32,674 nucleotides of DNA, taken from positions 1-32,674 of the forward strand of contig JAKPMS010000022.1 of the NCBI GenBank assembly GCA_029548805.1. The letters run 5' to 3'. The position numbers were made by a program, and so were the translations under genes. Positions 19,386 to 21,521 of the stretch are shown here, piece after piece. The stretch comes from Spirochaetota bacterium (lineage in GTDB: Bacteria > Spirochaetota > Spirochaetia > Treponematales > UBA12059). How positions within the stretch are numbered: position 1 is the stretch's first letter; every line of letters begins with the position of its first letter. The notes beneath the pieces were generated by a model. That model made no database searches, was not told the origin of the DNA, and was given only the letters and a program-made list of their open reading frames with translations.

Positions 19386-20135
19386 ATGCATAATTTGGAT
19401 GGCTCTTCAGAAACGGAACTATCTGTACTTGCAGCAGAAAACCCATGTATAGGTTTATATTCGGAAAAGGGGCTCCATTCTTCATTAAAGGCTGTTTATG
19501 CCCAAGCTCCCGGTGCAAGGATAGAAGTAAAAGTGGAGGCCAGAATTGTAGATGTATTGCTTCCGGAAGAAATTATAGAAATACAGACCCGCAATTTGGC
19601 TTCGATAAGTGAAAAACTTCTGGAGCTCGCATGCATAATGCCTGTAAGAGTGGTTCATCCTATCATTACAGAAACCATGATAGAACATTTAAACCCTGGT
19701 AACGGTACTGTCAGGCAGGGTAAACGAGCCAAAACAAGGCGCGATTTCTTTAGCCTTTTTGACGAACTGGTTTATGCTCCGCTGATAATTGCTTCTCCCA
19801 ATATACGTTTTGAGGTATTGCTTGTAAGCGTAAGGGAAATGCGAATTGCGGACGGAAAGGGTTCCTGGAAACGCAAGGGCGAAAGAACCCTGACCAGGGA
19901 GCTTGAGGAAATCCTGTCAGTAAAAAAACTTGAAAAAAAGGAAGACTGGCTTGAGCTTCTACCCGATGCAGGCAGGGGACTTTATGATTCAGTAAGCCTG
20001 GGTACCGCCTTGGGGATAAATACCGCAAGGGCAAGGAAAGTACTGTATTCATTCTGCCGGGCAGGGCTTTTGTGCCAAGCCGGTATGGAGGGCCACAAAA
20101 AATTGTACACATTAGCTAGTTCCTGGAACCTTTGA
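19386..20135 (+). CDS. Conserved hypothetical protein; possible PD-(D/E)XK nuclease-like fold with C-terminal winged helix
   Basis: EKGLHSSLKAVY...ARIVDVLLPEEIIEIQTRNLASISEKL (E / D / ExQ pattern); C-terminal LGINTARARKVLYSFCRAGLLCQAGMEGHKKLYTL resembles a wHTH; 4 bp downstream of the SpoIIE-like gene. Confidence 0.55.
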   Translation: MHNLDGSSETELSVLAAENPCIGLYSEKGLHSSLKAVYAQAPGARIEVKVEARIVDVLLPEEIIEIQTRNLASISEKLLELACIMPVRVVHPIITETMIEHLNPGNGTVRQGKRAKTRRDFFSLFDELVYAPLIIASPNIRFEVLLVSVREMRIADGKGSWKRKGERTLTRELEEILSVKKLEKKEDWLELLPDAGRGLYDSVSLGTALGINTARARKVLYSFCRAGLLCQAGMEGHKKLYTLASSWNL

Positions 20136-20240
20136 GACAATTGTTTTTTGTACTGCATATAGTATGAACAGAATGGCTATATACTCTATATGGTATCGTT
20201 TTTGGCAAAACAGACTTTTTCTCAAAGGTTCCAGGAACTA
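20117..20240. repeat. Inverted-repeat element 1 (124 bp)
   Basis: Perfect 21 bp arms TAGTTCCTGGAACCTTTGAGA (20117-20137) / TCTCAAAGGTTCCAGGAACTA (20220-20240); overlaps the stop codon of the 19386 CDS. Confidence 0.9.
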
Positions 20241-20280
20241 AATACACATTACCCAAGGACTTATAGCTGCAGCATTTTTG

Positions 20281-20405
20281 TAGTTCCCCAAATCTTGATG
20301 TAAACTGCTATTGCTACTATATGTTGTATGATACCATTCAAGCCTATACGATATATGGTAGTGTTTTTGTAAAAACTGACTTTTACATCAAGATTTGGGG
20401 AACTA
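20281..20405. repeat. Inverted-repeat element 2 (125 bp)
   Basis: Perfect 24 bp arms TAGTTCCCCAAATCTTGATGTAAA (20281-20304) / TTTACATCAAGATTTGGGGAACTA (20382-20405); right arm contains the aminotransferase stop codon. Confidence 0.9.
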
Positions 20406-21521
20406 GATAAGCCATGCTTCCAGGGCTGCCAAAGCTTCCGGCAAATTGACTCTTCCGTAGCCAAGCCTGAAATGGGCAGTATCATACCCGTACAGGCTGC
20501 CAGGCAGTATAAGTACCCCAGCTTCTGCCACCAGCTTTTCAGCTAGCGCTTCGGCATTTCCTTTCTTTGTCAGCCTGGGAAAGGCAATGGAGCCTCCTTC
20601 CGGGGCAATCCATTCTGCAAAATCAGGCCAGTTTGCAAAAAAGTCTTTTATTAGTACCAGGTTTTTCTTTACGAGGCTTTTATTTTTGTCAGCAAGCTTT
20701 TCCAAGTTTTTTATTGCTATTTCTGCCAGGAACTCGCTGGGCGCTGATGAACAAATGGAGTTGTAGTCTTTTACCACAGCTATTTTGTCCAGCAAATCCC
20801 CTCTGCGGCTAGCTAGCCAGCCTATGCGCAGGCCGGCAAGACCGGAATGCTTGCTTAGCACATCCAGAGCAATGCCGTTTTCATATACTTCGCTTACAGA
20901 AGGCAGGCGTTTTGCATGGTGTTCCAGTCTTCTGTACACTTCATCAACAAGCAATATTGCCCCGCTTTTACGGGCATAATCTACAACAGCCAAAAATTCT
21001 TCCTCTGTAAGCATGGCTCCTGTTGGATTATGCGGGATATTCAATACAATCAGCTTGGCAGGGCCTAGTTTTTCAAGTTCAAAAGGGTCCAGAACCCACT
21101 TTTTTTCTCCATTGGCCAGTTCTGCAATACGAAATTCCCATGGAATGACTTTGCAGCCCAAAGCCTGTGGTATTTCTGACAGGGATTGGTAGCATGGCTG
21201 GTTGACTATTACCCTGTCGCCTTTTTCCAGCAAGGCAAGGTACAGGTTCAGTATAGCTTCCTGGGCCCCCGAATGGACAAAAATATCATCTGCTCCTAGC
21301 CCAAGATAATGGGCAGCTATAGCTGTACGCAAAGTTGGGGCACCCCTTGTTTCTGTATAGCCAAGCCAATGGTCCATAATGCGTTCTGCGGCGCCAGCTT
21401 CCATGGCAAGGAGTTCCTTGATGGCTACTGATTCGCAATCGGAACTGCATAACAGATAGGGAGCATTGAATTCGTGTTTTGCAAAAAAGCGCTCCAGGGC
21501 AAAGGGTTTAAAAAAGCTCAT
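20403..21521 (-). CDS. PLP-dependent aminotransferase, class I/II (fold type I)
   Basis: NIPHNPTGAMLTEEE, ILLVDEVYR, LSKHSGLAGLRIGWL (PLP lysine); GGAGG SD. Confidence 0.9.
   Translation of the reverse strand: MSFFKPFALERFFAKHEFNAPYLLCSSDCESVAIKELLAMEAGAAERIMDHWLGYTETRGAPTLRTAIAAHYLGLGADDIFVHSGAQEAILNLYLALLEKGDRVIVNQPCYQSLSEIPQALGCKVIPWEFRIAELANGEKKWVLDPFELEKLGPAKLIVLNIPHNPTGAMLTEEEFLAVVDYARKSGAILLVDEVYRRLEHHAKRLPSVSEVYENGIALDVLSKHSGLAGLRIGWLASRRGDLLDKIAVVKDYNSICSSAPSEFLAEIAIKNLEKLADKNKSLVKKNLVLIKDFFANWPDFAEWIAPEGGSIAFPRLTKKGNAEALAEKLVAEAGVLILPGSLYGYDTAHFRLGYGRVNLPEALAALEAWLI

Follow-up and report, generated by a model that had tools for sequence, protein, structure and literature searches.

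MITEs of near-constant length and concertedly varying terminal repeats in a spirochaete genome, and an insertion sequence that shares their ends

The closest described systems to the elements reported here are the bacterial MITEs derived from insertion sequences, a kind to which the Correia elements and ERIC also belong. A 9-bp target duplication is typical of the insertion sequence IS1, and length constraints on transposons have been studied with engineered IS50/Tn5 elements. MITEAba12 (PMC6382973) exemplifies the bacterial group and, like the present family, is short, lacks an open reading frame (ORF), has terminal inverted repeats (TIRs) and a target-site duplication, and occurs in many mostly intergenic copies whose ends are common to an insertion sequence (IS). 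The present family differs from known bacterial MITEs in that, from copy to copy within a single genome, its two terminal repeats change together, its length stays within one base at 50-66% identity, and its partner transposase passes no curated family threshold. A further point of comparison is provided by the IESs of Paramecium, which are transposon-derived, are below about 150 bp, and are constrained in length rather than in sequence, a property that has been explained by DNA looping of the ends (PMC3464196).

The whole stretch of DNA that was analysed, referred to as the window, is 32,674 nucleotides long and represents contig C202 of a 2.39-Mb draft spirochaete genome (G000) in 215 contigs. 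A first-pass annotation of this window described two tandem inverted-repeat elements that begin TAGTTCC, end GGAACTA, and have related loops. Coordinates, arms, and loops were all reproduced from the sequence: element 1 is 124 bp long with perfect 21-bp arms, and element 2 is 125 bp long with perfect 24-bp arms. A 25-base loop pattern is found at two sites in the whole window, one in each element, where none is expected. The features of the locus are the following.

19386-20135, plus strand: upstream flanking gene, an ORF whose last codons and TGA stop (20133-20135) lie inside an arm of element 1
20106-20114, unstranded: TACACATTA, left copy of the 9-bp target-site duplication around element 1, a 9/9 match to 20243-20251; the family-wide offset and length agree
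20115-20242, plus strand: element 1 as a complete MITE copy, outer dinucleotides (GC ... AA) included; 124-bp core at 20117-20240
20117-20137, plus strand: left arm of element 1, a perfect 21-bp terminal inverted repeat
20151-20164, unstranded: internal dyad 1 of element 1 (TAC-N8-GTA), the family-enriched motif at position 35
20182-20195, unstranded: internal dyad 2 of element 1 (TAC-N8-GTA), the family motif at position 66/67
20220-20240, minus strand: right arm of element 1, a perfect 21-bp terminal inverted repeat
20243-20251, unstranded: TACACATTA, right copy of the 9-bp target-site duplication around element 1
20281-20405, plus strand: element 2, a full MITE copy of a subfamily other than that of element 1
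20281-20304, plus strand: left arm of element 2, a perfect 24-bp terminal inverted repeat, close to the ends of this genome's IS (TAGTTCCCCAAAGCTTAATAT)
20315-20328, unstranded: internal dyad 1 of element 2 (TAC-N8-GTA)
20347-20360, unstranded: internal dyad 2 of element 2 (TAC-N8-GTA)
20382-20405, minus strand: right arm of element 2, a perfect 24-bp terminal inverted repeat
20403-21521, minus strand: convergent aminotransferase gene (PF00155), whose TAG stop coincides with the CTA that ends element 2

A Pfam search with the upstream flanking gene returned no family.

Both elements belong to a large dispersed family. The covariance-model search that had been proposed at the outset was run together with DNA searches, and these recovered at least 150 full-length copies from the genome. 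When 370 kb of this genome were searched for inverted-repeat elements between 60 and 400 bp in length, 134 were obtained, and 116 of them are exactly 124 or 125 bp long. These 116 copies align in 125 columns, with single-base gaps that fall mostly in the loops, at a mean pairwise identity of 66% and a minimum of 50%. A 9-bp target-site duplication, located 2 nt outside TAG...CTA, accompanies 37 of them (8/9 or better), whereas flank swapping gives an expectation of 0.98 copies and a maximum of 5 in 1000 trials; the target consensus is about TAAANNTTTA. The core of element 1, with its perfect duplication, has a 100% identical twin at C165:15162-15285 that is flanked by a duplication of its own, TTCATTTTT. 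No target-site duplication is left at the flanks of element 2. The comparison with homologous loci, likewise proposed in the first-pass annotation, yielded an element-free site in G007 (HGW-Spirochaetae-3), a relative from the same genus, where the same convergent gene pair is found with stop codons 18 bp apart and no element between, and where the element-free homologue of the upstream gene ends KLYGLKP*. A single copy of the 116 lies in a large ORF, the others being intergenic or near contig edges, and the surrounding genes are convergent in 34 cases, tandem in 31, and divergent in 30. A terminator role for the elements was considered, and these orientations lend it no specific support.

Short (124/125 bp) and non-coding, with terminal inverted repeats as their borders (arms of 21-24 bp), associated with a duplication of fixed length, dispersed in copies that include an identical pair, absent from a homologous site, and sharing their ends with an IS, the elements are a family of MITEs, that is, non-autonomous DNA transposons, and not structured RNA. 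The 9-bp duplications and the IS with the same ends contradict the initial views that no standard family fits and that the elements are unlike an ordinary MITE. A literature search of partial coverage found no description of this MITE family, and a scan of GTDB contigs for the exact TIR pair of this genome gave 0 hits.

Two MITE copies of this genome, at L071:6702-6940 and L073:6439-6677 (contigs C74 and C94), contain a second repeat family of about 115 bp that consists of three successive hairpins (GGGCAGCTC..GAGCTGCCC, GTAAATCC..GGATTTAC, and GACTTCTAAAAACTTCAGTTTTTAGAAGTC), part of which also flanks the MITE copy in L032. Three loci of relatives (L107, L109, and L113) harbor TAGTTCCTCGAAGCTTGTTGG repeated head to tail, an arrangement of tandem partial terminal repeats that possibly represents the remnants of one-ended or nested events.

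The terminal repeats of the MITEs match those of an IS of about 1.25 kb, of which this genome has fragments at contig ends and relatives have intact copies. The transposase fragments found here are mostly at contig ends, as expected of a repeated IS in a draft assembly. The draft breaks at partner-IS copies at the ends of contigs C40, C26, C24, C208, C134, C151, C210, C194, C154, and C161 of G000. The IS termini in this genome read TAGTTCCCCAAAGCTTA(A/T)TATC, are close to the arms of element 2, and fit the element-2 subfamily best; for the element-1 subfamily (TGGAACC), no matching IS was found in this genome. G007 carries an intact IS of 1229 bp with perfect matching TIRs and a single ORF of 391 amino acids, and related intact ISs of 1.2-1.3 kb are found in other genomes. 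Palindromic elements also occur in the relatives, and the consensus of their ends is TAGTTCNTCGAA(G/C)CTTG. Altogether, the transposase family is present in 34 of 149 relatives, in addition to this genome, and the named records with the transposase are nearly all from Spirochaetota, with a few from Eisenbacteria.

The affiliation of this transposase is a distant one. In a Pfam search no family passes threshold, and a PDB sequence search returned nothing relevant. The NCBIfam IS1 model gives weak hits for all 19 members (best 3.2e-11), with the three proteins scored reaching 14.5-24.5 bits against a curated cut-off of 100, and the ISL3 model gives a partial N-terminal hit of 38 bits against a cut-off of 180. 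The predicted structure (mean pLDDT 82) has a DDE/RNase-H-type fold, and its best PDB structure hits are the ISCth4 transposase and retroviral integrases. The protein resembles the IS1 and ISL3 transposases distantly, in an N-terminal zinc-binding and helix-turn-helix region and in a predicted RNase-H-type catalytic domain with conserved D..D..E candidates. The partner IS differs from IS1 and ISL3 in its TIR (TAGT[TG]C..), its size of 1.2-1.3 kb, and its near-restriction to Spirochaetota. No clear 9-bp duplication was seen to flank the intact IS in relatives, and contig ends interrupt the copies present in this genome. On account of the weak IS1 and ISL3 hits and the RNase-H-type model, we call it an IS1-type-like DDE element and do not file it in IS1. 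The MITEs are probably moved in trans by this poorly known insertion-sequence enzyme.

These findings also bear on the proposal that the elements are folded single-stranded DNA recombination substrates, either integron attC sites or REP/REPIN sequences moved by a Y1 transposase. A hairpin with conserved ends and a variable stem would suit such a substrate, and the TAG at the base of the stem recalls the tags of REPs. However, 9-bp duplications mark staggered double-strand insertion by a DDE enzyme and not single-strand HUH or tyrosine recombination, the ends TAGTTCC / GGAACTA contain no R boxes (GTTRRRY / RYYYAAC) of the attC type, and the IS with shared ends encodes a predicted RNase-H-type transposase, so that we regard this proposal as extremely improbable.

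The first-pass annotation had described the outer stem, P1, as variable with its pairing kept. Paired changes do exceed chance, but perfect 21-bp arms are found in only 22 of the 116 full-length copies, the mean being about 2.6 mismatches. Young copies are no more perfect in their arms than old ones (2.62 mismatches where the target-site duplication is intact versus 2.57 where it is not, p = 0.97). Certain arm positions are invariant, namely TAGTT, A11 A12, and T15 T16, and these look like protein contacts. On a tree built from 77 interior columns, 53 same-branch double changes fall at paired arm positions, compared with 5-20 in slid controls, and 35 of the 53 lead from one Watson-Crick pair to another, compared with 1-4; although tree error inflates this count of independent arm changes, the concerted change itself is real. 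A whole-element tree gives 35 double changes, 23 of them paired-to-paired, versus 3-15 and 0-2 in the controls. Among copies with interiors at least 85% identical, 152 symmetric arm differences are observed where 39 are expected, as for instance between element 1 and C204:1933, where positions 7 and 9 differ symmetrically. Positions as far in as 17-22 are affected by concerted changes, and near-identical copies show such changes at several positions at once.

Covariation of this kind could be taken as the mark of a structured or mobile RNA selected for its folded form, with P1 closing a three-way structure that also contains the inner stem P2 and the P3 hairpin. The predicted folds are indeed strong: relative to dinucleotide-preserving shuffles, the plus strand gives z-scores of -8.0 for element 1 and -10.3 for element 2, the minus strand gives about -8 for both, and the alignment displays raw covariation in P1. 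Against this, the mismatches of P1 have little strand preference (G-U 58 versus A-C 48 in 64 copies, and 78 versus 51 in a larger set) and occur independently of the duplications. Within P2, mismatches lean to G-U over A-C (164 versus 68), but this is the bias that column composition predicts (156 versus 71), and the tree-based count of 19 double changes, set against 12-21 in controls, reveals no covariation excess. Furthermore, no Rfam 15 family matches at the gathering threshold, the copies are flanked by 9-bp target-site duplications and transpose to new sites, and relatives retain the ends and the length of the element and not its interior sequence. The selection for a folded form, whether of RNA or of a single DNA strand, that the first-pass annotation put forward is consequently not upheld, and the RNA reading is very unlikely.

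The pairing of P2 has another source, since both of its sides copy a near-palindromic motif, TAC-N8-GTA. This motif is encountered at element positions 35 and 66/67, with 174 hits in 116 copies where 7.9 are expected, and also at position 36 in two relatives, G001 and G003. Local hairpins at the internal dyads of the relatives' copies have no covariation, and the dyads therefore look like a sequence motif and not a stem. They are possible protein-binding sites. As sites for the transposase they were rejected, because they are absent from the ends of the IS in this genome.

With variable arms that stay paired above chance, the other idea of the first-pass annotation, a mechanism that regenerates the inverted copy at each site, therefore remains a live reading, and many of the paired arm changes are apparently independent. 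Template switching is described as homogenising the arms of inverted repeats (PMC8604942, PMC7202029) and as able to maintain hairpins (PMC8794818), and it is most likely the cause of arm matching here. Its main rival dispenses with arm copying altogether: purifying selection for ends that fit one transposase would keep the arms alike, and several transposase lineages would give rise to the subfamilies. In agreement with this, TIR variants of the IS family differ between species, and end sequence and transposase therefore plausibly co-evolve; the invariant arm positions, too, resemble protein contacts. Mismatches are nonetheless as frequent in copies with intact duplications, and unmatched arms therefore do transpose, while the reach of concerted changes to positions 17-22 and their occurrence at several positions at once in near-identical copies also speak against selection as the sole cause. 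We consider this rival a serious one, although at somewhat less than an even chance. Arm-to-arm copying combined with shared transposase sites fits the arm data better than does selection on a folded RNA.

The length of the elements is kept where their sequence is not. Copies are 124/125 bp in this genome and 115/116 bp in relatives whose interiors are almost unalignable: in G003, 17 of 17 copies are 115-116 bp at a mean interior identity of 42% (minimum 22%), and the copies of G001 and G002 are also 115-116 bp. A pattern spanning 99-159 bp, run against 294 genomes, recovered 26 elements from 5 genomes that belong to 2 genera, and among the matches listed all are 115 or 116 bp. No family elements of about 40-100 bp were found, a few are 165-178 bp long, and other genomes have further size classes of 142-143 and 177-178 bp. 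A minor class of 167-169 bp (L062:9786-9954, L062:19649-19815, L063:9956-10123, and L077:856-1024) shares the terminal repeats and differs in its interior. Descent alone might account for the fixed length, if the copies stem from a few recent masters and indels have had no time to accumulate, and some copies are in fact identical or nearly so. Such recency accords poorly with identities that fall to 50% here and far lower in G003, with the single pair of sizes among matches listed from two genera, and with the lack of family elements below about 100 bp, and we judge it unlikely.

We infer instead that the fixed length is imposed by the geometry of synapsis, to which a protein bound at the internal dyads may contribute. 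Short looped DNA is length-sensitive, and the Paramecium IESs are a natural precedent for a constraint of this kind. The IESs form a size ladder with steps of about 10 bp, whereas the MITEs have one or two sizes per genome (115/116, 124/125, 142/143, 177/178). The observed sizes of 115.5, 124.5, 142.5, 165-169, and 178 bp are not cleanly in helical phase across species, and strict phasing is therefore kept as a hypothesis for which the sizes are suggestive only. A stronger version, put forward here tentatively and with some doubt, is that the MITEs are length-locked nucleoprotein scaffolds, or molecular rulers, in which transposition would require the ends to lie exactly 115/116 or 124/125 bp apart and two TAC-N8-GTA protein sites to be present, the other sequence would be nearly free, and the ends would be matched by hairpin-templated copying.

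Taken as a whole, the elements are very probably MITEs whose ends are bound by the IS transposase and which insert with a 9-bp stagger; their arms would be re-matched, and their length would be set by geometry. The transposase of about 390 residues, encoded by the IS of about 1.25 kb with the same TAGTTC..-AA-CTT terminal repeats, would bind both ends and insert the element at another site, AT-rich and in most cases intergenic, by a joining step staggered by 9 bp, from which the 9-bp duplications would result. The arms would vary because the transposase reads only some positions (the invariant ones), and the remaining positions would drift and be re-matched from time to time, most likely through hairpin-templated copying from arm to arm as the DNA replicates. 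A second force on the arms would be selection for ends suited to one and the same transposase. The fixed length would most likely arise from the geometry of joining two ends on DNA shorter than the persistence length, to which protein on the two internal dyads perhaps contributes.

Among the relatives searched, about one in four has the partner transposase, which is without a Pfam family. Concerted change of terminal repeats can mimic the covariation of an RNA stem, and represents a trap for the discovery of noncoding RNAs. Finally, several spirochaete genomes harbor natural copies in which the sequence is near-random and yet the length is kept, such that the question of DNA looping or a molecular ruler becomes testable with real elements.
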